Source: a virus
Virus record (IMG/VR): IMGVR_UViG_3300029826_000008
Coordinates: 1 to 43,980 of that record
Reading direction: 5' to 3' (one strand)
Length of the DNA: 43,980 bases
Part shown: piece after piece, positions 2,139-39,276 of the stretch
Numbering within the stretch: the first letter of the stretch is position 1
Layout: every line of letters begins with the position of its first letter
Program-made: the position numbers and the translations under genes
The notes under the pieces: model-generated
The model's input: only the letters and a program-made list of their open reading frames with translations
The model's database searches: none
Told to the model about the DNA's origin: nothing

Positions 2139-2212
2139 AGTACAAATTCGCAGCAGCGCCCGAAAGCACAGGTAATCGCAATCAAGAGCGCGATGAGGAA
2201 TAAAAATCTCAT
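2135..2212 (-). CDS. Tiny 25-residue membrane peptide
   Basis: A 25-residue ORF beginning MRFLFLIALLIAITCAFG and ending RCCEFVL. Residues 3-17 form one hydrophobic segment, so it would insert in the inner membrane; three cysteines follow or end it. It is too short for standard gene calling, but both ends fit the operon exactly: its ATG overlaps the lipoprotein stop as ATGA, and its own TGA overlaps the next ATG as ATGA. This double coupling is the main evidence that it is real. Position beside the lysis genes suggests a lysis or regulatory micropeptide (inference). Confidence 0.5.
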   Translation of the reverse strand: MRFLFLIALLIAITCAFGRCCEFVL

Positions 2213-2697
2213 TTCCCTATTTGTGTTGCCAAAAACGGCGTGATGATCTGTAGCTGCTCGTTCAGGTGATAGCTCAACATTGCGTAATCGGCATCCGTAA
2301 GCGGTTCGCTGTCCAGCCCTGGCACTTGCACCCCGGCCACGGTCTGAAGTAGCAGGAAAGCAATCTGCACGTCCGGCGGCAAGGCTTGGTACTTCGCCAC
2401 GATATGAGCAATTACAGTCCCGTAGGTTGCGTTGCTTGCCTGAGCATCCTTGAGAAAGACCTGAAGGTCGGCAACGAAGTCCATTGCCTGCCGGGCGGTG
2501 TAAATGTCGCCGGCAAGCGCCGTGATATTGGCGATTTTTAGCACCTGCGCCATCTGCTCGGGGCTTTGGCCCATCTTCCCAGCCAGCTTGCAGATCACGG
2601 CGTCGGGGTGATCGACACACACGCTTTGAGTCGTGGGCGGTGCGGTGACGCACCCTGCCAGGAAAACAACGACAGCGAAAACAATGAGCTTTTTCAT
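2209..2697 (-). CDS. Phage lipoprotein, lysis region
   Basis: 162 residues from ATG 2697, starting MKKLIVFAVVVFLAGCV: a type II signal peptide with lipobox LAGC, so Cys16 would be lipidated and the mature protein anchored to the envelope. The rest is mostly helical, with VDHPDAVICKLAGKMG soon after the anchor. A longer frame upstream exists, but this ATG has an AGAGG ribosome-binding site and an ATGA overlap with the preceding gene. An outer-membrane spanin-like role is possible because it sits in the lysis cassette, but at 162 residues it is longer than typical Rz1-type spanins, so this is tentative. Confidence 0.7.
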   Translation of the reverse strand: MKKLIVFAVVVFLAGCVTAPPTTQSVCVDHPDAVICKLAGKMGQSPEQMAQVLKIANITALAGDIYTARQAMDFVADLQVFLKDAQASNATYGTVIAHIVAKYQALPPDVQIAFLLLQTVAGVQVPGLDSEPLTDADYAMLSYHLNEQLQIITPFLATQIGK

Positions 2698-3131
2698 GTC
2701 ATAAATCCTCTTATGGGTGTTGTTAGAATTTTTCTCGCACTTTTCGCCAAAGCGCATGGCGCCGCAAACAGGTGGCAAGCCATTTTGTAATACCAGGCCC
2801 GAATCCACCACGCGCCATCTTCGAGCATGATCCGCATCAGCTCATCGTCAACCGTGTCACGCCAGCCAATGCCCAGAAGACCCTCGCGCATCAGATAGTA
2901 GAGGGCGTCGTGTACCAAGCAGGCTCTGGCATTCGTTTTATCGTCCCACGTTGGCCCGCTGCACCCGTCCCATGCAAAGTATTTGCGGATAACAAGCGTC
3001 CCGTCCGGATGAAGTTGCACAAGCTCTGTTTTAAGAACCTCGCTCGGGTAAACTCTGGTCTGGATGCAACAGTCTTCGCGGAGTTGGAATTTGTATCCGG
3101 CGCAGTAGGTGATCGACGGGACCGAGCTCAC
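2694..3131 (-). CDS. DUF1353-like phage protein
   Basis: 145 residues. The core 'FAWDGCSGPTWDDKTNARA-CLVHDALYYLMREGLL' (residues about 52-86) matches the DUF1353-type phage proteins, which have a conserved W-DG-S-P ... HDALY signature and often lie next to lysis genes. No activity is established. The start is GTG at 3131, overlapping the preceding stop as GTGA; the stop overlaps the lipoprotein ATG as ATGA. The C-terminus is basic with an amphipathic stretch. Confidence 0.7.
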   Translation of the reverse strand: MSSVPSITYCAGYKFQLREDCCIQTRVYPSEVLKTELVQLHPDGTLVIRKYFAWDGCSGPTWDDKTNARACLVHDALYYLMREGLLGIGWRDTVDDELMRIMLEDGAWWIRAWYYKMACHLFAAPCALAKSARKILTTPIRGFMT

Positions 3132-3325
3132 TGCGTCACTCCTTTATTGTCACCGGAATCGCGCCCGAGCATTTCGGCCACCCTGGCCACGATGCGGTCG
3201 TCAACTCTTGTTTTTGTTTTACCAGCCAACCATCCGGCGACTCCTAACAATAGGCCGGTGAAAATTGGGTTTTCGTAGAGATACTGCAACCCATCAAGTA
3301 TCCATGCGTCTGCGCTCGGGATCAT
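3128..3325 (-). CDS. Candidate holin, single membrane span
   Basis: 65 residues from ATG 3325, which overlaps the endolysin stop as ATGA; a longer in-frame reading to 3394 would run inside the endolysin gene and is less likely. The protein has an N-terminal amphipathic part, one hydrophobic segment NPIFTGLLLGVAGWLAG (about residues 18-34) and a charged C-terminal tail (KTKTRVDDR). Small size, one span, basic tail and position next to the endolysin fit a class III-like holin or other lysis membrane protein. No family was recognised, so the role rests on context. Confidence 0.55.
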   Translation of the reverse strand: MIPSADAWILDGLQYLYENPIFTGLLLGVAGWLAGKTKTRVDDRIVARVAEMLGRDSGDNKGVTQ

Positions 3326-3729
3326 TTCGGCCACTCCCCTGTTCGCATCATTTCTGACAATTCTTTCGCTCGTCGCCCAACCTGCCTTGCCCACTTAGAA
3401 TTGAGCATTCCCCTTGCGGCCCGTTCGTAATCGCCCTGCCGAATTGCAGCCAATGTGTTCTTGAATTTGAGTAGTTTCGGAAGGCCAAGATTAAACAGCA
3501 TATCCACAACAACAGCTCGCCTTACGGGGTCCAAGTCCAAGCTAAGATAATAGTAATCAGATACCGCAAGATTATAGTCGTATTGGAATATCTCTTCCCA
3601 AATATCCTGCGTCAGCTTTGAACCCGGCAGAAACGCATGCCCATAGCCACCCGTAGGAACGCCTACCGTGTCAAAATAGACCTCTTCGCTATAGCCTTCA
3701 TGTTCCCTTATCAGTTCTCTTTCTTGCAT
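3322..3729 (-). CDS. T4-type lysozyme (endolysin, GH24)
   Basis: 135-residue muramidase that cleaves the MurNAc-GlcNAc bond of peptidoglycan at the end of infection. The catalytic triad sits at the same residue numbers as in T4 lysozyme: Glu11 in REHEG, Asp20 in YFDT and Thr26 in VPTGGYGH, with His31 following. The RRAVVVDMLFNLG block (about residues 69-81) matches the conserved core helix, and the C-terminal half is helical as expected. There is no signal peptide, so export through a holin is expected. ATG 3729 has a GAGG ribosome-binding site; the gene overlaps the upstream one by 32 bases. Confidence 0.93.
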   Translation of the reverse strand: MQERELIREHEGYSEEVYFDTVGVPTGGYGHAFLPGSKLTQDIWEEIFQYDYNLAVSDYYYLSLDLDPVRRAVVVDMLFNLGLPKLLKFKNTLAAIRQGDYERAARGMLNSKWARQVGRRAKELSEMMRTGEWPK

Positions 3730-4224: not shown

Positions 4225-4278
4225 ACAACTTGTTCGATTTGTAAATGGTACAAGTTGTTCGCGTTGTGGGTAAAAAAA
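4225..4278 (-). promoter_or_regulatory. Conserved 29-bp motif, site A, plus extra half-site
   Basis: Read on the minus strand, bases 4278 to 4250 are TTTTTTTACCC, six free bases, then CGAACAACTTGT. A second CGAACAAGTTGT lies exactly 25 bp further on (4236 to 4225). The T-run abuts the stop codon of the 2081-residue virion protein gene, and the element ends 16 bases before the first lysis-cassette ATG. ACAASTTGT is an inverted repeat, as expected for a dimeric binding protein. The same element recurs at 20222-20250 and 39246-39274. Confidence 0.7.
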
Positions 4279-7200
4279 TTACTGTACTCTGTCAAGGTAC
4301 TCCTTAATCAACCTTATCCGTTCGTTTTCCAGCCGCTTGATTGCGCCCTCGATTTGAGGGGTCTGTTTTTCAATCTTTCTTAACTTGTTCGCCCTTGCTT
4401 TGAGTTTGTTTAGGTGGCTCTGGAATTTCCCAATCCGCTTACTCTCAAGAAGCTCCTTGCGATGCTTGTTAAAAAATTCTCGCTTGTTGTCCGCCTTCTC
4501 GTATTGTTCAACGACATCTTGGATTTTAGCTTTGCGCTTTGAAAGTCTCCGGTTCCACAAGTCTTCCCGCTTGTGAACCCCTCTACCCATGTGCCAATAG
4601 TACAGTTTGCCCACTATCGGGATAGAGGCAGTCAACTCAAGGCCCTTTTCGTCACCCGCGCTCATAATGTCTTTGCCAGCCGCATCAACGAACTTGAACG
4701 GCGGTAGGATTTGTCTTGCAAGGGAAGAACCTACACCTTCTGTTCTGGCTTTCCATGTAACAAACTTTGACACCCCGAACAGTCTAAGAACATTATCAAC
4801 AACCCTGTCTTCCATATCGGTCTTGCGGCCAAGAATCCAATCCTTCAACTCGTCAGCCCCGGCATTGGCAAGAGTGAAAAGCATGGCAAGGCGAACAAGG
4901 TTCTTCATGCCTTGAATCTTTTCTTCCCTGTTCCCGTTCTTGATTTTGTTGTAAGATTCTCTACGGAAAGCATCGAATTGTTTCAGGGTGAAAGTCTTGA
5001 GCATATAGAACACTCTGCCGTTACCGGCTTCAAGATACTTCTGGGGCATTTCTGATAGAGCGATAGGCTGGAAGTCCGCAAGTTTATTGTAAACGAGTAG
5101 CTTTACGTTGTCCGTAATTTCGCCATCAATCAGGTCTTGAACAACATCGTCTGTTTCGTTTCCAAATATCTTGCGTATATCGGATTTCAATTTGATGGGG
5201 TTCTTTCTGGCTTGTGCCTGATATTTCTCAAGCGCCGAATTGAGCAACGCCTCTTTACCGATAGAGTCTATTTTTTCAAGCCCAACATACTTGAAGGTAA
5301 GGTTAAGGGCTTTACTTAGTGTGCTCGCGTCTGCAAACTCTTGCGCGATTCTGTCAATCCCAACATCTTCCTTAGTAATCTTAGACTTCCCCGTTGCAGC
5401 GCGATAGGCGTGTTTCAACGTCTTGTCAAAACTACCTTCATAAGCGGCCCAAGCCAAGTCGCCAATCTGTGTTAATGCGGAAATAGGCGAACCCATCGTG
5501 TCTATGTAAGAAAAGTTTTTGTACGCCTGGACAATCCCGCTTGAACCCCTCTCATGGAAACGGGCATTCAGAATTTCTTGTACTGTTTTTTCGTCCTTGG
5601 CTGAAATTTCTCCATTGGCAATAAGTTGAACAATGTATGAAGCGATGTTGTCTTGATAGTTTCGGTTCTCGGCGTACTTTGTCAAGTAAGCCTCATATTG
5701 TTTCTTCCGTCCGATAGCCCTGCTACGCTTCTTTCTCGCTTCGTCCCGTTCCTCTTGGCTCAAGTTTTCATCATTGACAATCTTGTTGAGTTCTCGGATA
5801 CGGGCCTCGGCCTCGTTCATGCGTGTTCTGATTCTTGCAACCTTTTCTGGGATTTTACCAAAAAACCTTCGGGATTCAATGGCATTTCTCATTTCTCGAA
5901 TATGGTGCATCAGGGCCGCATCGGAATCCATGTAATACTGATTAAGGTACGGTGGTATCTTTTTCAGCTTGCGCTCTTTGGTCGCACTCGGCCCCCCAAG
6001 CCCCATCGGTACACCAAGAATAGCAGACGAGACAATGTTTGCCTTCTGGTCAAGGGTCATGTCGGCAGACGTAATGCCCATTGCCGCCGCTCGTTCGTCT
6101 ATGAGCCTTGAAAGTATGGGCCAATCCTCTTCCTTGCCGATAGCCCTTAGAAAGCCCTTTGGGTCTTTAAGAATACGGGGAGCATATTCCTCTATGGTTC
6201 CAAGTGTAAGCCCAACCTCGTATGCGTCTCTCTTTATTTGGTCAAGCACTTCGCGGTATTTGGCATGCTCTTTCTCCATCCCGTACTTAGCAACAAGCTC
6301 GTCAATCTTTGCCTTGTCCGAATTCTTGCGAGCATAGTCCCAATCTGCCTTGTCGGTAGCGGTCATCTTGCTTGCTTTACGAAGCAGTGGTTCAACGTCC
6401 GCAATATCTTGAGCAACCGACTTATTGATGTCGAAATCAAGTTTGCGTATCTTGCTTTTTAGGCCCTCGTTAATGTTTCCAAGTCTTGTAGAAATAACGC
6501 CAAGGTATCTATCCGTGCCCTCCTTGATCTCGTCTTTGAATTGCCGGATGGTTCTTGTGATATTCCCTTTAACGTCTTTCTTGATTTTACGATTGGCCTC
6601 GTAGTCCTCTTGTGTCACTGGCCGTTTGGTTTCTTCGAACCAGCCTTCACCCTTCCCCCGCATGAAGCGGATGTCGGGGTTGGCCTCCTGCTCTGCCTTC
6701 GAGAACCGCGCATCCCCCCACCGCACCGCCTGCGCCTTCCCCTCGACAACAACGTGCCGCATATCCGCAATCCACGCCCGAATCTCAGCATCGGACAGCT
6801 TTACGTCAAAGCCCAACTTGCGGATAAAGCCTTTCACCAGCCGAATCGCCCGGTCCACCCATGTAGATTCCGGGTTGTTCTGCGCTTCCCGTGCAAGCCA
6901 CTCGTCTGCGGCCTGAATCTTTCCCTCGCGGGTCGATACGTCAAAGCCGTAACCGGGTTCCTTCAAGATGTCGGCAATCGCGGTCTTCTTCGCCCCATAG
7001 ACCTGATACGCAAACATCCTCCCACGCTCGCCCAAAGCCTTTAGCCCGTAGTGTCCGAACGCCTCATGGAATATGGCCTCAACAACGTCCTGCTCTGTGG
7101 CAAGGTTCGGGGCTACAAGGTGGACTACGCCGTCATACAGGACGCCCTTCACAACGTCCCCGTCGCCCATCATCGCCTGTACGGGGTCTGGTAAAGTCTT

Positions 7201-13853: not shown

Positions 13854-15688
13854 TCGTAAACCTCCACTTCAATTTCTTCCTCTACCATATACCCAGCACA
13901 CCCTCCCCAGCCATACCTACCTTCTGCCGCGCTACCGTAAACATCGTGCAACATAGATATGCCTTCTCCTTCGTCATCCATGATGCCAGCAGGAAGAAAT
14001 TTTTCAGATTGGTAGTGATTATTTATACTCCCATAAAAATATCCATATCTTGTATGATCTGCATTATAAGCACTGCCCTCATCATTATAATGAAACATAG
14101 TATAACTATACATATATACTGGGATACCATCAGCATCAAATACATGAGTATCATTAACGTAAAACATATCGTCGCTTGTATAACCTTCAGCAACAAGAGC
14201 GCTCTCACCGTTAACGCAAGCATATAATTTGGCAGCAGGGTAAGTATGACTTGCTGTGCCTTCAAAACTACAAACACCATTTAATGTACAAGTACATCCT
14301 TCATACTGACCGTTAAAAGAGTCTGTTTCTCTTGTTATTCTATAAACCTCTCCCCTCGCTTCGTATAAAGCAATATATTTATCTCGCAACGATTCTATTG
14401 TGCAGTTAGCGTTTATGTACGATACAGCATAATTACCAACACTATCAGGAGAAGAATAATCTAAAGTGTAATCCCAAGTTGATCTGCGGGTACATGGAGC
14501 TGTCTGTTCACCAAAATAATCAAATATCTGGTTTCTCCAACAAGTGTTAGGCGTTATAACAATGTTACCGCTATCTCTATTCATAGTTGCATACGGATAT
14601 AAACCATCTTTGGCGGTTATTGTATATACCCCTGTAGCTGTACTATAAATAGTTCTTGACGCTGGTACTCCGTAAGTATGAGTAGCGATTATGGATGGAC
14701 TATATACAACAGATATATCCCCTGGCCACCAGCCCATATAACACCAAGGGTCATAACTCTTTATAACTTTGTTTTTTGTCACTATGATATTTGTTATATA
14801 GCCTCCAAGTTCTCCGCATTCCACCCAACAATGATATTCAACCCATTCCTCTTTTTTACAGGTATATTCACCTAAACAAGTAGTAGTGGTATATTCAGTA
14901 CAAGCGCCACATCCTTCCGGGTCGTTAGGCCCCTTACACCAAGCATCAGAATAATAGACGTAATTTTCAGGAACAATAGCACGCTCCTCATCTACGGGTG
15001 CATGGCTGCCCAAACCCGTCCAATAGTAATCACAGCCAGTTAATTCGGACTCACTTGGGATAGTTGGCGGGGCAGGTGGCTCTCCACTATCATCGTGTGT
15101 TGTTTCTCCGGATAGGGTATAGAAAAATTTTGCACTCTTATACCCCCAATCCTTACATGAATACAAATCGCATCCCATGTTGTCGTCGCTGTAAAACGGG
15201 GGCTCTTCATAATACCTAGTACTTGAGTAAAACGGTTTGGAAAATTTCGTTCCTTCTATGGTACAAATTTTCCCAGCCCAATTCATATTACCAAATACAA
15301 ATATATTCCCGAAACTACCTTCTGCATAATCAGCATATTTATAGAAAAGGCCCTCTTGATAACCGTCTTCTCTATCAGTAGAATCAGTGGTGCTAAGACA
15401 TATACCAGGAACAAACCGGCGAACCGTCTTCTTTATCAACCGCTTCTTTGGAGCGTAAACCGGCGGGTCACAATAGACATACGCCTTGTCGCGCCCAAAC
15501 AAACTTTCAACCCTAATCACCGTACCATCTTCCATCCGGTGCGTGTACCAAACATGGTCCAGGTTGTTCACATTCTGCATCTTCATAACGTGCATCATCT
15601 TCTGAGCCAACGGACGAACACTCATTGCCCTATCGGTGTCACCGTCAAGCACCCAAGATATGCCGTTAAGATTCAGATACCGTTTCAC
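13850..15688 (-). CDS. Cys- and Tyr-rich putative tail/spike protein
   Basis: 612 residues with 22 cysteines and very many Tyr, Trp and Asp residues; cysteines cluster in the middle (CGACTEYTTTTC ... CKKEEW ... CWVEC) and near residue 485 (CTCTLNGVC). The first 75 or so residues (to about base 15460) have the composition of the neighbours; the rest is clearly AT-richer, so it may be a chimera with an acquired distal domain. No known family. Position among fibre genes suggests a tail or host-contact protein, with extracellular disulfides or metal sites possible. Start is GTG 15688, GTGA overlap. Confidence 0.6.
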   Translation of the reverse strand: MKRYLNLNGISWVLDGDTDRAMSVRPLAQKMMHVMKMQNVNNLDHVWYTHRMEDGTVIRVESLFGRDKAYVYCDPPVYAPKKRLIKKTVRRFVPGICLSTTDSTDREDGYQEGLFYKYADYAEGSFGNIFVFGNMNWAGKICTIEGTKFSKPFYSSTRYYEEPPFYSDDNMGCDLYSCKDWGYKSAKFFYTLSGETTHDDSGEPPAPPTIPSESELTGCDYYWTGLGSHAPVDEERAIVPENYVYYSDAWCKGPNDPEGCGACTEYTTTTCLGEYTCKKEEWVEYHCWVECGELGGYITNIIVTKNKVIKSYDPWCYMGWWPGDISVVYSPSIIATHTYGVPASRTIYSTATGVYTITAKDGLYPYATMNRDSGNIVITPNTCWRNQIFDYFGEQTAPCTRRSTWDYTLDYSSPDSVGNYAVSYINANCTIESLRDKYIALYEARGEVYRITRETDSFNGQYEGCTCTLNGVCSFEGTASHTYPAAKLYACVNGESALVAEGYTSDDMFYVNDTHVFDADGIPVYMYSYTMFHYNDEGSAYNADHTRYGYFYGSINNHYQSEKFLPAGIMDDEGEGISMLHDVYGSAAEGRYGWGGCAGYMVEEEIEVEVYE

Positions 15689-16824
15689 CGGACGTACCTC
15701 AAAACGTAATCGTCGTATCGGTCTTCGTAGAGCAAGGTTGAAATCTCTCCCATAACTGCGCCCGAAACAAGCGTAGGCAGATAACCGTCAAGGGATAGCG
15801 AATCACCAGCTATGGATTCGTCGGATAGAATGATCCCCGGCAGGTCAGCATCCAGCGTTCCATATGCGCCCGAAAGAACCTTGGCCGAAATCTTGAAAGC
15901 CGGGAGATTCTTGGATAAGTCCCCGGTCCCCGCAACACTCCCCTCGGCGGCGATGGCGAGCGGCGGTAGCGACTTGTCGAGGGTGGCGAGGACCGGGGTG
16001 GTCCCATCTGCGTCAAGCGTGAATACAGGAAGGCGTTTATCCAAGAAACCAAGGCGTTCCCCGGAGATAGCAATCTCAACCTCAAGAGACGGAAGGTTGA
16101 GCGTCCCGGTTCTCGCCCCGGTATAAGACTCAAGCGATAGCGAAGGAAGTCTCTTGTCAAGGCTACTCGTCGCCCCAACAGACATCTCACCGCTACACTC
16201 AAGGTCGGGCAAATTAAGCGTACCGCATCGCGCCCCCATCCGTGCGCTTGTCAGACGAATGGTGGGCAGGTCGGCATCGGCAGAAGCGCCCCCGGTCATT
16301 GTGGCTTCAATCTCAAGTACCGGGATGTTTAAGCCGTAAGTTTCACAGCACGATATATTCCCAAAAATCGGGATAATCTGGTCGGACGCTACAACGTGAT
16401 AAGCATTGTTTACGGTGAGCGTTCCAGCCGTAAGTGTGCTTATATTCCACGCCACATGGTCATGCTCCGCGTTTTGAATCGTCAGGCTTGCCGTGACCAG
16501 TTTTAACGTGCCGTCTGCACTATGCACATGATACGGTGACGAGACTACAAGGTCATACGGCCCTTGCGGGTCAAGCGTCACCGTCCATGCGTCATGCAGA
16601 TTTACCGCATTTGAGACAGTAAGAATAAAAACCTGATCGACATTTTCCCCTATGTTCTCATGGTACGCTCCCTGAACGGCGATGCTATGTTCTTGAGTAA
16701 GATTAAGATCAGACTCTTCCCAAAGGGTTTCGCCACCAGACGTAACAATCTCGCCATTATAGGTGACAGGCTCAAGAACCCGCTGTGAATTATATGCCGA
16801 TTGAACGGTCAGCGTCGTGGACAC
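15685..16824 (-). CDS. Repeat-built tail fibre protein
   Basis: About 379 residues in two repeat regions. The N-terminal half contains degenerate copies of the 22-residue repeat found in the 21057-22412 gene (for example LTQEHSIAVQGAYHENIGEN, LTVNNAYHVVASD). The C-terminal half has a different beta repeat of about 30 residues with the motif 'LDKRLPxLxL' (FLDKRLPVFTLDADG, TLDKSLPPLAIAAEG, DLSKNLPAFKISAKV). This is a typical beta-rich fibre architecture. I chose GTG 16824, which lies one base after the upstream stop and has GGGAG seven bases before it; a GTG at 16845 has no ribosome-binding site. Confidence 0.65.
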   Translation of the reverse strand: MSTTLTVQSAYNSQRVLEPVTYNGEIVTSGGETLWEESDLNLTQEHSIAVQGAYHENIGENVDQVFILTVSNAVNLHDAWTVTLDPQGPYDLVVSSPYHVHSADGTLKLVTASLTIQNAEHDHVAWNISTLTAGTLTVNNAYHVVASDQIIPIFGNISCCETYGLNIPVLEIEATMTGGASADADLPTIRLTSARMGARCGTLNLPDLECSGEMSVGATSSLDKRLPSLSLESYTGARTGTLNLPSLEVEIAISGERLGFLDKRLPVFTLDADGTTPVLATLDKSLPPLAIAAEGSVAGTGDLSKNLPAFKISAKVLSGAYGTLDADLPGIILSDESIAGDSLSLDGYLPTLVSGAVMGEISTLLYEDRYDDYVLRYVR

Positions 16825-16825
16825 A

Positions 16826-17422
16826 TTAAAACTCCCATCCAACACCCATTGTTATGATATAGTCGTGCATCCAATCGCCGGATTGCAAAAAATTGATTCG
16901 TTGAATATCAGCCGTTAGCTTCAAATTGCGCCAAACCTTCATGCCACCGCCAATAGAAGCGGCAGATACTTGATTCGGCGTGTCGTGTTCCTCGAAGTGG
17001 TAGGTTCCCCACAAGTCCAAAAAGTCCGTGTCGTAACCGATGGAAACGTGCGGCTGCCATGCAGACTTTTCCCAAACAACGCCGCTGGCAAACTCGCTTC
17101 GATACCCTGCGACACCATAGCCGACACCCAAATAGGCGTCCTGGTAGTAGGCCCGGACCTGCCCGCTGGCCCCGTAGGTGTAGCCTTCGGAGGCGTTGTG
17201 TTTCTTGCGGTTGGCAAGATTCGCCTCGCCGTGGAATGCGAGAATGTCCGCATATCGCCCTGTCGTGTGAGACACCGCTACGCCATAGCCGGTATCGTAG
17301 CCCGCGCCTTGGCCGATGACTTCAAGGGATACGGTTGTCTCTGCCCTTGCGATTGCCGCCAATGTGAGAACGAAACCGATCAGACAGACGGCGCTTATGA
17401 TTAGGAAATAGTGTCGTTTCAT
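16826..17422 (-). CDS. Phage-encoded outer-membrane beta-barrel protein
   Basis: 198 residues. A cleavable Sec signal peptide is evident (MKRHYFLIISAVCLIGFVLT then LAAIARA, cut near residue 27). The mature part alternates polar and aromatic residues in strands (VSLEVIGQGAGYDTGYGVAV, AYLGVGYGVAGYRSEF, LKLTADIQRINFL) and ends MGVGWEF: a C-terminal aromatic beta-signal recognised by the BAM machinery of Gram-negative bacteria. It should fold as an eight-strand-like barrel in the host outer membrane. It lies inside the tail-gene operon. A role in superinfection exclusion, receptor masking or altered host surface, as with lambda Lom, is inference; it is not clearly of the Ail/Lom family. Confidence 0.8.
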   Translation of the reverse strand: MKRHYFLIISAVCLIGFVLTLAAIARAETTVSLEVIGQGAGYDTGYGVAVSHTTGRYADILAFHGEANLANRKKHNASEGYTYGASGQVRAYYQDAYLGVGYGVAGYRSEFASGVVWEKSAWQPHVSIGYDTDFLDLWGTYHFEEHDTPNQVSAASIGGGMKVWRNLKLTADIQRINFLQSGDWMHDYIITMGVGWEF

Positions 17423-17441
17423 TGGTTCGCTTCCCCTGGCT

Positions 17442-17636
17442 TTACGGACCTATATTGTAGCGCCTACAGGCGGCCCGAATCATATCAATCGCCTCGTCAA
17501 AAGCCGCTACTTCGCCAGACCGCATGACATGACCGGTTAAATCTTTCTCATCGTAGCAACGGTCGCGCCACGCGGCAGTTTGGTCGCGGCGTTTTTGCAA
17601 GCTATCCATCACTTCGGCAATCATTTTTTGCAGCAT
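17442..17636 (-). CDS. Small helical phage protein
   Basis: 64 residues from ATG 17636, preceded by AGGAAGG. It is helical and ends with GEVAAFDEAIDMIRAACRR, a pattern seen in small phage proteins with a 'GE-xAFDEAI' helix; function unknown. A longer frame to 17711 would run through the upstream gene with no good start signal. It precedes the outer-membrane protein gene by 19 bases. Confidence 0.6.
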   Translation of the reverse strand: MLQKMIAEVMDSLQKRRDQTAAWRDRCYDEKDLTGHVMRSGEVAAFDEAIDMIRAACRRYNIGP

Positions 17637-17646
17637 TTTGACCTTC

Positions 17647-17760
17647 CTAAATATCATACGGCTTATGCAACTTCTCCGGTGATACTTCCCGTTTCCGACG
17701 AAGCTGCACAACTAACTCTTTGGCCCGGTCCATCGCCTCAATGATTTTTTGCTCGTCCAT
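17647..17760 (-). CDS. 37-residue hypothetical protein
   Basis: A short frame starting MDEQKIIEAMDRAKELVVQL and continuing as a basic helix (RRKREVSPEKLHKPYDI). It fills the space between the upstream stop (17762) and the next ribosome-binding site almost exactly, which supports it, but its own ribosome-binding site is weak. No family recognised. Confidence 0.4.
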   Translation of the reverse strand: MDEQKIIEAMDRAKELVVQLRRKREVSPEKLHKPYDI

Positions 17761-17761
17761 A

Positions 17762-18091
17762 TTACTTAACCAAAATCGGCTCCTTGGCAACCGCAACCGG
17801 CTTAATCTCGTAGGCCACCTTGACACTCCCATCCGATAAAATTTCCCATTTCTCCGGCGGCAACTTGACCGCCTCAGTGTCTTTCGTCAGCGTTGGTGCT
17901 TCTGTAATAATTCGACGTTTCACCGAATCGAGGTAAATTTCCTTTGCCCCAAGTTTTGCCAGCTCAGTCAAGCATTCAGCTTCGGTTGGTTTTTCGACGA
18001 GCGTAAATTTTGTGTAAGTTTTGGTCCGCTCACCCGCTTCAAAAAACCCGATCACCGTCCCGGCCCCGTCGTGTATCAATCTGTATGGCAT
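17762..18091 (-). CDS. Hypothetical protein next to adhesin
   Basis: 109 residues from ATG 18091, served by an excellent AGGAGGAATC site that overlaps the adhesin stop codon. The protein starts MPYRLIHDGAGTVIGFFE and has an alternating beta/charged pattern; ECLTELAKLGAKEIYLD (about residues 38-54) is a probable helix-turn-strand. Phages often place small fibre-assembly or chaperone-like proteins directly after the distal fibre/adhesin gene, and that is a reasonable guess here, but no homology is recognised. Confidence 0.55.
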   Translation of the reverse strand: MPYRLIHDGAGTVIGFFEAGERTKTYTKFTLVEKPTEAECLTELAKLGAKEIYLDSVKRRIITEAPTLTKDTEAVKLPPEKWEILSDGSVKVAYEIKPVAVAKEPILVK

Positions 18092-18099
18092 GATTCCTC

Positions 18100-18861
18100 C
18101 TAAGTATTGACAGTAACGGTCGCACCTTCTGCCTCGATGTTGGCAATGGCTGCCAAACCAGCCGCCCCAGGTGCCGCACAGTTGCCGGTGATAGTGATGA
18201 CGTCTCCGACGGCCCAAACCAGATCCTCGTCCAGATCGACCAGCAGATTGTTCACTTCGGTTTGATCGAGACTGGAAAAACCCTGAAGATCTAAGGTGGC
18301 CGGTTTGGTAGTCCAGGTTTTGCCGGTGTAGGCGTTTATCGTGTTGGAGCCTAAGCAGCGGAAGAACGTTATGCCCGCTGGCAGATCGGCCAGATCCCCG
18401 GTTACAGTGTTGTAGCCGTAGCAGTTGAATTGCTTTATGCCCGTCGGCAGATCGGCCAAGTCGCCAGTTACAGTGTTGGAGCCTAAGCAGATGAAGTACG
18501 TTATGCCAGCTGGCAGATCGGCCAGATCGCCAGTTACAGTGTTGGAGCCTAAGCAGATGAAGGACGTCATGCCCGTCGGCAGATCGGCCAAGTCGAATTG
18601 CACATTCGCGCCAGCTCCGATCATCGTGAATTTGGTCAGGTTTTGCGCCCCGTAAATCCGCACCAACCGATTACCGGCAGATCCGTAGTCCTTGCTCCAT
18701 GCCTGATCGGTGCCAGTGTAGGTGCTTCGTGCAGACCCGTCGCCCCAATCGACCGAGATGGACGTACCGGCGAGGGTAGAAAACAACCCCGAAATGACTT
18801 GGGTGTTGACGACCTGAAAGCGGAAAAAGTGGGCGCGACTAAGCAAGGGTAGAAGAGGCAT
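18100..18861 (-). CDS. PKD-like/leucine-rich-repeat adhesin
   Basis: 253 residues. The N-terminal part contains the PKD-like signature SISVDWGDGS (about residues 35-44). It is followed by four 22-residue repeats of the form DLADLPAGITYFICLGSNTVTG (about 90-180), which resemble BspA-type leucine-rich repeats, and a C-terminal cap with 'SLDQTEVNNLLVDLDE'. This combination is typical of phage tail-tip or fibre adhesins that contact the host surface. The repeats are nearly identical in DNA, so copy number can change by recombination. Start ATG 18861 (TGATG overlap) has GGAGG six bases upstream; GTG 18864 is an alternative. Confidence 0.7.
   Translation of the reverse strand: MPLLPLLSRAHFFRFQVVNTQVISGLFSTLAGTSISVDWGDGSARSTYTGTDQAWSKDYGSAGNRLVRIYGAQNLTKFTMIGAGANVQFDLADLPTGMTSFICLGSNTVTGDLADLPAGITYFICLGSNTVTGDLADLPTGIKQFNCYGYNTVTGDLADLPAGITFFRCLGSNTINAYTGKTWTTKPATLDLQGFSSLDQTEVNNLLVDLDEDLVWAVGDVITITGNCAAPGAAGLAAIANIEAEGATVTVNT
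18345..18608 (-). repeat. Tandem 66-bp repeats in adhesin gene
   Basis: Four in-frame units with a strict 66-bp period (equivalent ATG triplets on the plus strand at 18371, 18437, 18503 and 18569) share the core GGCAGATCGGCCA and, in most units, GTTACAGTGTTGGAGCC. The outermost unit diverges after about 18592. Units differ by a few bases, mainly at the codons that vary the repeat surface. Confidence 0.9.
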
Positions 18862-19442
18862 CACGCACCTCCATCAGTAAGCGTTCCTTGCGATCCGCTT
18901 GTGACAATCCAATCGTAGGCGCTGGCCCCGGTCTGAAACGAAAAGAACGTGAAGTTGTCGCCAACCGCTGGAGTCGCAAGGCTAACTTTGTCGCCATCAT
19001 CCAGCGCCTTTCCATCGAGATAGATTTTGTCACCGGCCCCGGCTTTGAGGTGAAACGCCCCTGCCCCGGCTGTGCCGATCACGACCAGCCCATGCAGCCC
19101 TTCTGCGGCGGCGGGAAGGGTCTGTGTGTTCTCGGCGGCTTGGCCGTAGTTGCTGATAACACATCCCCGACACTCGGCGGCGGTGAGGGTATCCGTGGCC
19201 GCTTGCGTGACAACTTTAAGCCCTGCACTTACGGACCCTGTAAAACTGATTGAAGCAAGTCCCTCAAGGTAGCTTTTTATGGCCGCCTTAAGGTTTGCCC
19301 ATGTCAGTTTCTTGAGCACATTGCTTGCAGCAGAATCAATCAACCCAAGCTCGTCGGCGTCAACCGGGGGCGTCTTTGACGTTGCGCTATTTATTGCAGA
19401 CGCTACTTCTGTCGAGTGGTTTAATGTGTCATGTTCTGGCAT
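18861..19442 (-). CDS. Tail fibre/baseplate structural protein
   Basis: 193 residues. The block KTPPVDADELGLIDSAASN followed by VLKKLTWANLKAAIKSYLE (residues 23-60) is a hallmark of phage tail fibre and structural proteins, where it precedes a small beta-rich C-terminal domain; here that domain has AGDKIYLDGKALDDGDKVSL and FTFFSFQTGASAYDWIV. ATG 19442 has GGAGC seven bases upstream and lies just after the previous stop. Its stop overlaps the adhesin ATG (TGATG), consistent with joint assembly of the host-recognition apparatus. Confidence 0.75.
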   Translation of the reverse strand: MPEHDTLNHSTEVASAINSATSKTPPVDADELGLIDSAASNVLKKLTWANLKAAIKSYLEGLASISFTGSVSAGLKVVTQAATDTLTAAECRGCVISNYGQAAENTQTLPAAAEGLHGLVVIGTAGAGAFHLKAGAGDKIYLDGKALDDGDKVSLATPAVGDNFTFFSFQTGASAYDWIVTSGSQGTLTDGGA

Positions 19443-19443
19443 T

Positions 19444-20202
19444 TTATGCTCCGTAATACTCCGGCAAGGTCAGAGTAAACGTATCAATGGTATAAGTCGC
19501 CCCAACGGTAATCGTGGTAGAACTCATATTCAGGTCCGCACCACTTGTTCCAACCGAACCGTCGATTCGCGGCAAGGTAGTAGAGGCGGCCCCGGCGTCA
19601 GTGGCGTTACCCACAAACCTGAACCATCCGGCAGTCCCGGCGGCAATGCCCGTGTCCTGCCACGTTTCGGACGAAGCCTTGGAAATTGCCCCGCTTGCGG
19701 CATCGCCAAACTCCAACCCGTTGTCGAACGCCCCTGCGGTAAACGTCCCGGCGCTTTCGCTGATCTCCAAAAGCAAAGTCCCCGAAGCAGCGGTGTCGGC
19801 ATCGGCAGGTTGAGAACCGGAATAGATTCTCAATACGCCGTCCTTCAGAACGTCCTTCAAAGACCCGCCCTTGCAGCAGAGCAGAACAGTCCCGGCGGCG
19901 AAGTTTTCAGCCGTGTCCACGGAACCCGTCGCAAAGGTCAAAGTCTGTGCGGCAACAGCGGTAAGGGTTACGCCGTCCAGATTATTTGCAGAAGTCGTGG
20001 AACCGTAGGTGTAAATCTTGTCCCCAGGCGAAAAGCCCTGAGTAATGAAAGACCCCGCAGTCGTGGTAATCGTGTCTGAACTGGCCCCACCGCTAACATA
20101 GGCCAACGTTCCCGAAAGAATCCCATTGGTCACAAGGGCTTTCGGTTCGGCCACGTTGCCCAACAATTCGTTTCTCAATCCGGTAGAAAGTTTGATCGTC
20201 AT
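19444..20202 (-). CDS. Virion structural protein, beta-rich
   Basis: 252 residues. The segment DVLKDGVLRIYSGSQPADAD (about 115-134), followed by LLLEISESAGTFTAG, is a conserved block of a family of phage structural proteins found between head-tail and fibre genes; the N-terminal part (MTIKLSTGLRNELLG) also matches. It carries an inserted Thr/Ser/Gly-rich domain at residues about 28-110. It is the first gene after conserved motif site B and has an AGGAGG ribosome-binding site 6 bases before ATG 20202. Confidence 0.75.
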   Translation of the reverse strand: MTIKLSTGLRNELLGNVAEPKALVTNGILSGTLAYVSGGASSDTITTTAGSFITQGFSPGDKIYTYGSTTSANNLDGVTLTAVAAQTLTFATGSVDTAENFAAGTVLLCCKGGSLKDVLKDGVLRIYSGSQPADADTAASGTLLLEISESAGTFTAGAFDNGLEFGDAASGAISKASSETWQDTGIAAGTAGWFRFVGNATDAGAASTTLPRIDGSVGTSGADLNMSSTTITVGATYTIDTFTLTLPEYYGA

Positions 20203-20221
20203 TTTAACCTCCTGAAATCGT

Positions 20222-20250
20222 ACAACTTGTTCGCAGTATGGGTAAAAAAA
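20222..20250 (-). promoter_or_regulatory. Conserved 29-bp motif, site B
   Basis: On the minus strand, bases 20250 to 20222 read TTTTTTTACCC, six free bases, CGAACAAGTTGT. The element begins one base after the stop codon of the 20252-20728 gene and ends 19 bases before the ATG at 20202, with the ribosome-binding site in between. It is the only sizeable intergenic gap in the tail region, and splits the upstream structural genes from the fibre/adhesin group. Confidence 0.7.
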
Positions 20251-20251
20251 T

Positions 20252-20728
20252 TTACGCGCCGGAAGGCTTGCGTCCCAATATCACCGGCACAACCTCTATG
20301 TGGTCGATGCTGAAGTCAGCACCGTTGATATTGTCAACCCGAACCATCCAGTAGCGCCCCTTCATGTCTCTTGCGCCAAACACTTTCGTCCCGTGCTGAA
20401 GGTTCCCCGTATGGTTCGCGGTCAACAAGAATGTCCGTTCATGGCCCTCATCGTCCCTGAACGTAATCGCCAAATCCCCGCCGTCCGTTTCGTAGCCGGC
20501 ATAAGCCGAGCGAAGTCTCTTTTGGAAAGAAATCCCCCAATCGGAAGTCGGCAACTCAAAGAACGCCTCTATCGGGGTGCCGTCATCGCTACCGCCTGTG
20601 TCAATCTCGTAGATCCCGTTCTCGTTCGCGCCAACGTAAGTCTTTCCAATCCTCGCCATCGAATTGAAATTGTAGTTGGCGAACTGAGAATGCTGGATAC
20701 CCTCAAGGTTAAGACAAAGCGTAAGCAT
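20252..20728 (-). CDS. Putative tail structural protein
   Basis: 158 residues from ATG 20728, which overlaps the upstream stop as TAATG and has GAAAGAGGC before it; a longer frame to 20770 is less likely. The sequence (SMARIGKTYVGANENGIYEI, GISFQKRLRSAYAGYETDG, RYWMVRVDNINGADFSIDHI) is beta-rich and resembles phage proteins that report 'measured' surface values next to neck and tail genes. No enzyme motif. It is the last gene before motif site B. Confidence 0.6.
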   Translation of the reverse strand: MLTLCLNLEGIQHSQFANYNFNSMARIGKTYVGANENGIYEIDTGGSDDGTPIEAFFELPTSDWGISFQKRLRSAYAGYETDGGDLAITFRDDEGHERTFLLTANHTGNLQHGTKVFGARDMKGRYWMVRVDNINGADFSIDHIEVVPVILGRKPSGA

Positions 20729-21060
20729 TATGCCTCTTTCACGTTGAGCATGAACTCGTCCCAAACCCACCCGTTAGGATAGGTCAGGTCGTAAACGGTA
20801 AGCCTCGCCCTGAACAGTCCCTTTTTTAGTCCTGAGATTGTCCCAATATCCAAATTGAGAATCCCGTCCGCACCGTCTGTCGTCCAATCAAATGCGCTTG
20901 AGTAGGTGCTTGAATCAATCGTCAAGTCGCCTACCTTCAGGGTCATTCTGGTCGAAGCGGAAATATCCTGCTCGGTCGCGTCGGCAGAACTGGCCTCTCT
21001 TGCTTTCAGGTAAAGGGAAATCTCGTTATCCCTGCCTATGTAAACTGTCTCAGTTATCAT
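20728..21060 (-). CDS. Small beta-rich virion protein, BppU-like
   Basis: 110 residues beginning MITETVYIGRDNEISLYLKA with a pattern of short strands (STRMTLKVGDLTIDS, KKGLFRARLTVYDLTYPNGWVW). Size and pattern resemble the N-terminal immunoglobulin-like domain of phage baseplate/fibre-anchor proteins (BppU type); this is a weak resemblance. ATG 21060 overlaps the stop of the large repeat protein as ATGA, and its own stop overlaps the next ATG as TAATG. Confidence 0.55.
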   Translation of the reverse strand: MITETVYIGRDNEISLYLKAREASSADATEQDISASTRMTLKVGDLTIDSSTYSSAFDWTTDGADGILNLDIGTISGLKKGLFRARLTVYDLTYPNGWVWDEFMLNVKEA

Positions 21061-22412
21061 GCCGACATTCTCCGGTACTCAGAAGCGGATTCAATGAAAG
21101 TCTTTCTTGTCGCACTGTGAATTGTCCTGTATCGCCCCGCGCTCTCAACCCACGTTCTTTCAAGAAGGGGGAGGGCGGCAAAAACTATGTTGTCAGAATA
21201 GACCGCATGAATCCCGTCCGATAACCCCATGTCAAGATAGTGGTCTTGGGTAAGCGTAGGTGTTCCCGGAACATCGCCGTGATACGAATCGTCAACGTCA
21301 AGCGTGAAAACCTGAACAAGCGTTGGACTATCAGAATAAACATCTGAATAGGCGTCATTAATCGGTACGTCGCCAACCTCAATCGTTTGTGGACTTGTAG
21401 AAGTGACAACATGATACGAACCATTCACCGACAACGCGAATATCGTTACCGTATCTACATTGCCAGAAACGGTTTCGTGGTATCCATCGGCAACGGCAAT
21501 CTGTACCGTCATGCCGTCAATAGAACCCGCCGTGTGCAAGTGAGCGCCATCAGCCAACACAAGAGTTACTGTCGCGTCAACCTCAACATTGTCACTTGTG
21601 CTAACATGGTACGCAGACTGAACCGTGAGGCTATGGTCTTGAGTAAGAATTACCGCATCGCTCTCAAGCACATGATACGCCCCTTGAACCACAAGCGCAT
21701 GGTCTTGGGTCAAGGTGACGTTTTGGGCCTCTTGAACGTGCGCTGAGTCCGCTACAACAAGGTCGTGGGTTTGTGTTAAGGCTACACTGTCGGAAGCCGT
21801 TGCGTGGGCAGAATCGGCAACCGAAAGACTGTGTGTCCCGGTAAGGGTTATGCTGTCACTTGCGATTGCATGGTTACTGCTGTCAACCGAAAGCGCATTG
21901 TCTTGGGTAAGTGTTACACTACCGGCTGTCTGTTCGTGGTAAGCGCCGTTTGTCGAAAGCGCGTGAATCTGTGTGAGTGCTACGTTATCTGCCGCATGAA
22001 CATGGCATGAATCTTCAAGAACAAGAACGCCGGGGACTTCAAGTTCTATCTGCTCCGAATAGGATTCATGGTACGCACTGGCGACTGTTAGGTTGTGGCC
22101 TTGGGTTAGGGCAACGCTACCCGCTGCTTGTTCGTGGTATGAACCGTTTACCGTTAAATCGTGGTCTTGCGTTAAGGCTACGTTATCTGAAACAAACTCG
22201 TTATAAGCATCGTTTACCGAAAGCGTGTGATCTTGGGTAAGCGCAACGGCTTCCGCTACATTCGCATGATACGCCCCGGCAACCGCAAGGCTATGGCTCT
22301 GTGTCAGGGCGACATTGCCAACCGTATGCTCATGGTAGGAATCGTTGGCGCTCGCGCTGGTGGCAGCTTCCTCCCCCAACAGCAACGCCATATTTCGGTA
22401 TAGGACGCTCAT
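21057..22412 (-). CDS. Tail protein of about 17 repeats of 22 residues
   Basis: 451 residues, nearly all made of a degenerate 22-residue (66-bp) repeat with the consensus 'YHxxxSDNVALTQDHxLxVxGA', about 17 copies between residues 25 and 410; for instance YNEFVSDNVALTQDH and YHVLESDAVILTQDH. Such short beta repeats suggest an elongated beta-solenoid or fibre shaft. A C-terminal non-repeat part (ERTWVESAGRYRTIHSATRK) is basic and may attach or cap it. The same repeat family occurs in the gene at 15685-16824. No named family is recognised. Confidence 0.65.
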   Translation of the reverse strand: MSVLYRNMALLLGEEAATSASANDSYHEHTVGNVALTQSHSLAVAGAYHANVAEAVALTQDHTLSVNDAYNEFVSDNVALTQDHDLTVNGSYHEQAAGSVALTQGHNLTVASAYHESYSEQIELEVPGVLVLEDSCHVHAADNVALTQIHALSTNGAYHEQTAGSVTLTQDNALSVDSSNHAIASDSITLTGTHSLSVADSAHATASDSVALTQTHDLVVADSAHVQEAQNVTLTQDHALVVQGAYHVLESDAVILTQDHSLTVQSAYHVSTSDNVEVDATVTLVLADGAHLHTAGSIDGMTVQIAVADGYHETVSGNVDTVTIFALSVNGSYHVVTSTSPQTIEVGDVPINDAYSDVYSDSPTLVQVFTLDVDDSYHGDVPGTPTLTQDHYLDMGLSDGIHAVYSDNIVFAALPLLERTWVESAGRYRTIHSATRKTFIESASEYRRMSA

Positions 22413-22751: not shown

Positions 22752-23591
22752 CTAATAAACTCCATAAATGATTGCTCTTAAAATTCTGTCCGTAGCGTCT
22801 GAAACTAAGCTACATTTTGATCTTAGGCACAATCTTGATCCTTTAGGTATAATTACTGGGATAAAGTTTGTTACTTGATGTTTTGGTACACAAGAACTTG
22901 GCCTTACCTCACACCTAATCCCGCCAGATACGGCTACTTCGCTACCAGAAGAACCAATTCCTATTTGCACTTCCCATGAATAGGACGTACTGCTATAATC
23001 ATTATTCCAATACGGAAACCCGAGAATTACGCCTTTGAGTGTCCTATCTGTTGCAGCAGAAAACTCTACCCAAGAACCAAACGTTCCAGCGGTGCCGCCA
23101 GGATCAATGTTTGTACCAGTAGAAGTTGCAGTCACCGCTCCGTAAGTTTTCACACCAGCAAAAGATGGCATATTGACTGTGTGATATCCAAGAAAATCCA
23201 AATGACAAAAATTGCTCGTTGCTAAACTATTAGCCTGATATCTGCCAGAAATCCTTGTTCCTGCTGGGAGTGAAACTGGGAAAATATACTGCGCAACATT
23301 TGCATATAAATAGTTATAGCCGGCAGAATATGTCAGATTTTCAAGAATTACCGTCTCACTACTTGCTGCGCCTATGGCGATATCTATCAGGATAGCCTGT
23401 TGATTATAGCCAACATAAGGAACCACTTTAATCAAATTAATACTATACGGAAGAGATGATTCAATCTCCGTCCAGCTTCCCTTTATATTTACGCCACTTT
23501 GATCTGTTGCTAACATTATACCATAATACGCTGACTCCGCCGACTCAGCGCCAGTATCTACACACCCAAAACCCATCGGCCAATCAGCCAT
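22752..23591 (-). CDS. Duplicated beta-domain structural protein
   Basis: 279 residues from ATG 23591 (GGAGGG ribosome-binding site; overlaps the upstream gene by 8 bases). Two halves are related: each has a strand-rich core with 'GIGSSGSEV'/'AIGAASSETV', then a later segment ending 'FPVSLPAGTRISGRYQA' in the first half and 'IPVIIPKGSRLCLRSKC' in the second. This suggests an internal tandem duplication of a beta-sandwich domain of about 130 residues. Likely a tail or decoration protein; AT-richer than its neighbours. No named family. Confidence 0.6.
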   Translation of the reverse strand: MADWPMGFGCVDTGAESAESAYYGIMLATDQSGVNIKGSWTEIESSLPYSINLIKVVPYVGYNQQAILIDIAIGAASSETVILENLTYSAGYNYLYANVAQYIFPVSLPAGTRISGRYQANSLATSNFCHLDFLGYHTVNMPSFAGVKTYGAVTATSTGTNIDPGGTAGTFGSWVEFSAATDRTLKGVILGFPYWNNDYSSTSYSWEVQIGIGSSGSEVAVSGGIRCEVRPSSCVPKHQVTNFIPVIIPKGSRLCLRSKCSLVSDATDRILRAIIYGVY

Positions 23592-23892
23592 AGACCCTCC
23601 AAAGATACCTGAAATTGAAACTGCCAAGCAGAATCAAATAGTAAGCGTTAATCAGTCCCAAAACCTTCCAACCTTTTCGCTCGTCGCAGATGTAGGCAAT
23701 GAAGCAGACAACCCCGACGCCAAGAGTCTTGAGCAGAATGATTGCCCACTCGACGCCCACAATCCCGAACAGCCAGACGGCCAAGGGGTTCGCCTCGGTG
23801 CCACCGTACTGGAACAAGAACAGGGTGCTCCAGCCGTCGGCCACTTGCAGGGCTACGGCAAGGCAGAGCAGTATGAAGGTCAGCCGTTTCAT
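23584..23892 (-). CDS. Multi-span membrane protein, DUF5658-like
   Basis: 102 residues with three to four hydrophobic segments: residues about 5-17, 38-60 (PLAVWLFGIVGVEWAIILLK), 58-68 and 78-92. The block 'WSTLFLFQYGGTEANPLAVW' matches the conserved region of DUF5658-type membrane proteins (short loop with E-x-NP between spans). An inner-membrane protein within a structural operon cannot be a virion part in an obvious way; superinfection exclusion or lysis timing are guesses. ATG 23892 overlaps the upstream stop as ATGA. Confidence 0.6.
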   Translation of the reverse strand: MKRLTFILLCLAVALQVADGWSTLFLFQYGGTEANPLAVWLFGIVGVEWAIILLKTLGVGVVCFIAYICDERKGWKVLGLINAYYLILLGSFNFRYLWRVYG

Positions 23893-35627: not shown

Positions 35628-35866
35628 TATCGCTTCCTCGGCTCATTCAAATCGCCAATCGTTGACACCCTCGGTTCCTCGGCTTCGGCCATCGCTTCCT
35701 CAAACGGGTCGCCGCCAGGGTCCGCTTGAGAACCTTGGTTCCTTGTTGGCGTTGCAATGGAACTCATCATGGGAAGCTCCCTTGAGTTTCGCCCCATCCA
35801 ATACCCAAGAAGAATGCACCCGACCGCCGATAGCAAAATACTAAAATACGGTATCAACCAAATCAT
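35627..35866 (-). CDS. Small single-span membrane protein
   Basis: 79 residues from ATG 35866 (GGAGG seven bases upstream), inside the end of the terminase gene (26-base overlap). One clear hydrophobic segment IWLIPYFSILLSAVGCILLG (residues 2-21), then a polar Pro/Glu-rich tail (PGGDPFEEAMAEAEEPRVS), so an N-out or N-in single-pass protein with a cytoplasmic or periplasmic tail. An inner-membrane protein inside the packaging operon is unusual; function unknown. A longer frame to 35929 has a weaker start. Confidence 0.6.
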   Translation of the reverse strand: MIWLIPYFSILLSAVGCILLGYWMGRNSRELPMMSSIATPTRNQGSQADPGGDPFEEAMAEAEEPRVSTIGDLNEPRKR

Positions 35867-38767: not shown

Positions 38768-39239
38768 GCACCGCCTCCAAGAGTTTTTCGTTCGTGAACA
38801 TCTTCGGCATCTTTTTTGGCTCGGGCATATACGTTTTAATCGTGATATGCGTACCCTTGCCCTTGCCACCCTCATCCTCTTTCACAACACAAAGCCCCAA
38901 GTCCTTCGTCAGCTTCTCAGCCGCCTTCAGCCGCAACTCGTAATCGGGGTCCATGCACTCCAACAGCGTGTGCGCCACCGCCCCCTTCTTCTTGCCTACC
39001 GCCACCACCCGCCAGTGTTCAGGCAACGTCTCAGGGTCAACCTCGCTCGGCACCGTAATACGCAACGGCACAACAGCCTGTAACGCCTCCTTCACAGCAC
39101 CGGCCACCGTCTTCGCGCTTAGAGAACATTCCTCGTAAGCCTCGTCCAACGGCCTACGCAACTCCTTGATAATATCGTCCCGCGTAAGGGCCGTCTCGCC
39201 TCGCTTAGCTACTGCCTTGTCATCTTTTTTCTTTGCCAT
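38745..39239 (-). CDS. Putative terminase small subunit
   Basis: 164 residues from ATG 39239 (GTG 39245 would add two). N-terminal part is basic and helical (MAKKKDDKAVAKRGETALTR); the core 'LLECMDPDYELRLKAAEKLTKDLGL' (about 92-116) matches the 'D-xx-LRLKAAE-L-K-LGL' helix common in phage small terminases, and the C-terminus binds as a tail (YMPEPKKMPKMFTNEKLLEA). Two genes before the large subunit, this is the expected place for TerS, which recognises the packaging site. Identity is inferred, not certain. Directly follows conserved motif site C, leaving almost no leader. Confidence 0.6.
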   Translation of the reverse strand: MAKKKDDKAVAKRGETALTRDDIIKELRRPLDEAYEECSLSAKTVAGAVKEALQAVVPLRITVPSEVDPETLPEHWRVVAVGKKKGAVAHTLLECMDPDYELRLKAAEKLTKDLGLCVVKEDEGGKGKGTHITIKTYMPEPKKMPKMFTNEKLLEAVHGNGEVD

Positions 39240-39245
39240 GTCCAC

Positions 39246-39274
39246 ACAACTTGTTCGTCTAAAGGGTAAAAAAA
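39246..39274 (-). promoter_or_regulatory. Conserved 29-bp motif, site C
   Basis: Minus-strand bases 39274 to 39246 read TTTTTTTACCC, six free bases, CGAACAAGTTGT. The element begins two bases after the stop of the 39277-39543 gene and ends 6 bases before ATG 39239 (or touches GTG 39245). If transcription starts within or just after it, the putative small-terminase message would be nearly leaderless. Confidence 0.7.
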
Positions 39275-39276
39275 TA

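Follow-up and report, generated by a model that had tools for sequence, protein, structure and literature searches.

A predicted outer-membrane beta-barrel gene with lom-like placement in the tail operon of a short-tailed environmental phage

Bacteriophage lambda carries the gene lom between J and the tail-fibre genes (PMC12309495), and the lambda gene order that we examined showed the same placement. The tail-region position of an outer-membrane barrel gene is thus not new, lambda lom being the precedent. The lom gene is described as expressed in lysogens (PMC12309495); strong expression in the lytic cycle is also reported, with a citation of ribosome profiling, in another paper (PMC9836094). 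It is well established that phages need to limit adsorption to producing cells and debris, and two lipoproteins, T5 Llp and Rtp45, block adsorption to infected cells and to debris (PMC9586334, PMC12685063). Superinfection-exclusion proteins are described as made early in the T5 paper.

The window analysed here is a viral record of 43,980 bases from a short-tailed phage in an environmental sample. Its minus strand carries every large virion gene and also the open reading frame (ORF) of interest. By its gene content the virus is podovirus-like. The window encodes an SU10-type adaptor, a portal protein and an Hc3-type head-closure protein, as well as a protein of 2,086 aa that contains a transglycosylase domain. 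A further product, the 650-aa tail protein phrog_10969, is related to F116-type phages of Pseudomonas. Two of the other genes contain intein-like inserts. The terminase large-subunit gene (35841-38579, minus strand) has one within its Walker A motif (GGSAGPGK/...HN/SHAIRY), about 365 aa long. In a close relative, L002, whose portal is 95% identical, this point is occupied by another insert, which is shorter. A DNA methyltransferase gene (41295-43448, minus strand) is split by an insert that starts with CLSEDTELL and ends with VFVTGN/S and whose middle part looks degenerate.

The initial annotation placed an outer-membrane beta-barrel gene at 16826-17422. The ORF is real and these coordinates are correct; it lies on the minus strand, which had been left unstated, and encodes 198 aa from an ATG preceded by a good Shine-Dalgarno sequence (AGGGGAAG...ATG). 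A clear signal peptide and a C-terminal Phe beta-signal had been claimed, and both were borne out. The protein begins with MKRHYFLIISAVCLIGFVLTLAAIARA/ETT. Residues 1-27 (17342-17422, minus strand), that is MKRHYFLIISAVCLIGFVLTLAAIARA/E, make up a predicted Sec signal peptide with a KRH n-region, an uncharged h-region, an ARA/E cleavage site and no lipobox, as called by a heuristic and not by SignalP. At the other end, the C-terminus DYIITMGVGWEF ends in F (position -1), and positions -3, -5, -7 and -9 are all hydrophobic or aromatic, so that residues 189-198 (IITMGVGWEF; 16829-16858, minus strand) read as a beta-signal of textbook form. The mature part contains zero cysteine, 13.5% glycine and 7.6% tyrosine. 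Its two-residue hydrophobicity alternation gave z=3.7 against its own shuffles, which is higher than the values of the known barrels OmpW (2.8), Lom (2.6) and OmpX (1.3). Most virion proteins of the window were at about 0, and the adjoining 386-aa ORF was at 2.4.

We then combined the two terminal features into one rule, a signal-peptide-like start plus a beta-signal-like end, and applied it to the window and about 120 fetched loci, which together supplied 4,464 ORFs of at least 110 aa. Lambda Lom, OmpX and OmpW had been included among these as positive controls. Only four ORFs passed, namely the barrel ORF and the three controls. Taken singly, the signal-peptide part was passed by 334 of the 4,464 ORFs and the beta-signal part by 43, and the per-ORF chance of passing both is therefore about 0.07%. 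The pairing of the two signals in this ORF is not due to chance. The sole Pfam match was to OMP_b-brl (PF13505), which covered residues 39-198 and ran to the last position of the profile (E=6.9e-5) with a score of 23.5 bits, below the gathering (curated) cut-off of 28.7. Structure prediction had been named as a check of the barrel, which it did not confirm: AlphaFold2, given the single sequence without homologues, returned mean pLDDT values of 36 and 29 for the whole and the mature protein. Since this is no usable model, we infer the barrel rather than model it. The sequence features nevertheless make it very probable that the product is an outer-membrane barrel, probably with 8-10 strands. 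A protein of 198 aa is also the right size for an eight-stranded barrel enzyme, and an enzyme of the PagP or PagL type could alter lipid A and so the receptor. No PagP or PagL match was obtained from Pfam at an E-value limit of 10, and we consider an enzymatic role very improbable.

No direct relatives of the barrel were present in the viral contigs, phage records, plasmids, genome contigs and tail-module relatives searched, so that both family and fold rest on one sequence. A 32-residue match containing a stop (E=1e-3), which came from 398 Pseudomonadota genomes, was judged to be noise and not a barrel relative. The PDB sequence search returned BamA barrels only, with E-values of 1.7 and above. 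Searching related phage records with PF13505 gave no hits, but that search also overlooked the window's own barrel gene, so its result is no sign that such genes are lacking there. The combined rule, which may miss some barrels, found no further gene of this kind in the F116-type, prophage and nearer loci.

The gene had also been placed inside the tail operon, and this is supported by the gene order and by the tight coupling to the next virion gene. The TAA of the barrel gene is followed, one base later, by the GTG of its neighbour (TTT TAA T GTG). This neighbour is conserved in relatives and is listed as a 386-aa ORF at 15685-16845. The aligned start of its homologue in locus L010 fits the GTG directly after the barrel stop; therefore, the gene probably occupies 15685-16824 (minus strand) and encodes about 379 aa. 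In the virion proteins encoded by the listed ORF and by the gene at 21057-22412 (minus strand), a unit of about 27 aa (AYHexxxdnvxLTQdHxLxV) recurs in degenerate form, and the versions in relatives are much longer, up to 1,785 aa. The results support that the barrel gene bears no sign of a transcription unit of its own: there was no clear promoter directly upstream, and the yield of a sigma-70 promoter and terminator scan was about equal to that of shuffled sequences.

A repeated element, AATTTTTTTACCC-n7-GAACAAGTTGTAC, is found before the tail operon (20215-20252, minus strand). Further copies are located at 4243-4280, before the lysis genes, and at 39239-39276, before the packaging genes, and the one at the packaging genes is conserved in L002, the close relative. 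The element is written AATTTTTTTACCC or TTTTTTTACCC, then n7, then GAACAA(C/G)TTGT. An extra half-copy is seen at 4225-4236. We consider the element a candidate late control site, possibly a phage-specific late promoter or operator. If it acts in this way, the barrel gene would belong to the unit beginning at 20202. A late position would also suit a helper of lysis or release, a barrel that weakens the outer membrane or aids the lysis proteins, and the same has been suggested for Lom, since lom and holin genes are transferred together in lambdoid phages (PMC9836094). However, the lysis-like cluster of this phage (the endolysin at 3322-3729 and a lipoprotein at 2209-2697) is encoded apart and has a copy of the repeated element in front of it, and a lysis role appears improbable. 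The lipoprotein beside the endolysin (also delimited as 2209-2811, minus strand; MKKLIVFAVVVFLAGC...) matches Cor and Rz-like spanin profiles weakly, apparently by way of its lipobox region only.

The barrel gene lies in a 2.6-kb insert (16825-19443, minus strand), which is bounded on its upstream side by the conserved gene of a phrog_3758 virion protein (19444-20202, minus strand). The insert also contains, on the same strand, a gene for a tail-fibre-like protein (phrog_18251 / phrog_19294; 18861-19442), a gene for a repeat protein (18100-18864), and ORFs of 109 aa (17762-18091), 37 aa (17647-17760) and 64 aa (17442-17636). The repeat protein has 22-aa LADLPxGIT..CxGxNTV units, which correspond to a 66-nt period in the DNA, and shares 55% identity with the C-terminal part of a protein of 368 aa encoded on an unrelated phage contig of 109 kb. 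It is likely to be a mobile adhesin domain. The gene at the same place beside the repeat protein in that contig was considered as an equivalent of the tail-fibre-like gene and was rejected, as the two are not homologous. The whole insert could be imagined as a paired "adhesin plus shield" cassette, in which the barrel shields the producing cell and debris from the adjoining adhesin and both move together, but we regard this as a long shot.

We compared the region with 14 viral loci gathered via the tail gene at 20252-20770. The homologues of 19444-20202 and 15685-16845 are adjacent, separated by 4-364 bp, in L010/L107 (which are one contig), L108, L109 and L111/L112. In L106, the homologue of 19444-20202 is followed by a homologue of the window gene 22752-23627, and L110 and L114-L117 have a different gene order. 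Given the absence of the 2.6-kb insert in those relatives in which the two conserved genes follow each other, the barrel gene behaves as accessory cargo; the gene orders point to a late gene carried in a slot that is variable and bears adhesins. Because this slot is empty in the syntenic relatives, we discarded the reading as a conserved tail gene or as a virion protein. The sharing of the slot with adhesin-like genes still leads one to consider that the product belongs to the virion or binds the receptor and that its outer-membrane label is wrong, as has been argued for certain "Lom-like" genes next to tail spikes (PMC12309495). This is very improbable here, because the signal peptide, the beta-signal and the alternation match those of true barrels, and a signal peptide would direct the protein away from the assembly site.

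The initial annotation contrasted this gene, as a late tail gene, with a lysogenic-conversion moron. Its first half stands, since the gene is located among late tail genes and lacks signs of an independent unit. The contrast with a moron does not, because the insert in which the gene resides is missing from the syntenic relatives, and because lom of lambda is both cargo-like and a late-region gene, reported as strongly expressed in the lytic cycle. The barrel could accordingly be a Lom-like gene for lysogenic conversion or host fitness, used mainly by lysogens (in adhesion, or in resistance to stress or other phages), with a location among tail genes that only reflects where cargo can ride. 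Its genomic plan equals that of lom, which is described as expressed in lysogens (PMC12309495), it sits in a variable insert, and the F116-type relatives of the tail module carry integrases, the profile being present in two F116-type phages. However, the same search found no integrase profile in the window or its nearest relatives, whose records may be incomplete, and both the coupling to the next virion gene and the lack of a clear promoter directly upstream speak against it. The gene may have a lysogenic use, as the record of the window is perhaps incomplete, but we think a role mainly in lysogens is unlikely.

We tentatively prefer the explanation that the protein is a small outer-membrane beta-barrel which is directed at the host and is not part of the virion, its gene riding as late-expressed cargo in the variable adhesin slot of the tail operon. 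After translation from the late tail mRNA, the protein would leave the cytoplasm through Sec, enter the outer membrane with the help of BAM and be displayed on the infected cell. Its surface loops might change, mask or mimic the adsorption target of the same or related phages, and new or incoming phages would then adsorb less to the producing cell and to debris. This is the most likely function by analogy, but we hold it as possible rather than probable. A block of adsorption to debris or of superinfection, as had been suggested, is plausible because of the analogy with T5 Llp and Rtp45. We count against the preferred explanation that these two proteins are small lipoproteins and not barrels, that superinfection-exclusion proteins are described as made early, that the PF13505 match is below its cut-off, that the barrel is without a homologue, and that AlphaFold2 gave no usable model.

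The comparison with T5 Llp and Rtp45 holds in part. The barrel would be, like them, a phage-encoded outer-membrane factor, with the adsorption block proposed here and described there. Unlike the barrel, both are small lipoproteins of the periplasm, which bind a host receptor from inside, and proteins of their type are described as early, whereas a barrel from the tail operon would be made late.

The closer likeness is to lambda Lom. Both proteins have about 200 aa, both are exported small outer-membrane barrels (predicted in our case), and both genes are in the late tail region beside adhesin genes. The C-termini are also alike, with IITMGVGWEF against FIVGVGYKF in Lom and WIAGVGYRF in OmpX, and the Lom likeness reads as SGDWRTDGFIVGVGYKF against SGDWMHDYIITMGVGWEF. 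Unlike lom, the barrel gene sits in a 2.6-kb insert of a short-tailed phage in which no integrase was found, and its product has no significant pairwise BLAST similarity to lambda Lom. The Ail/Lom profile PF06316 and phrog_108 (Lom) did not match the barrel at a limit of E=10, while the lambda Lom control gave 1.1e-53 and 7.5e-74, respectively. An hhalign comparison of the barrel with Lom plus OmpX aligned the last 18 residues alone, and the known barrel OmpW also scored low, so that this comparison carries little weight. By the PF06316 and phrog_108 searches the protein is outside the Ail/Lom family, and its resemblance to Lom is one of anatomy.

We regard the barrel as a true and fairly clear observation and, by analogy, as a fresh example of the lom-type arrangement, with a putative function. 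As an independent case with lom-like placement, it slightly raises the likelihood of a late role related to adsorption, and such a role is easy to test. The lambda-lom arrangement, in which a host outer-membrane barrel is encoded with late tail genes, is thus extended to short-tailed environmental phages, here with a protein from outside the Ail/Lom family that rides as cargo in a variable adhesin slot.
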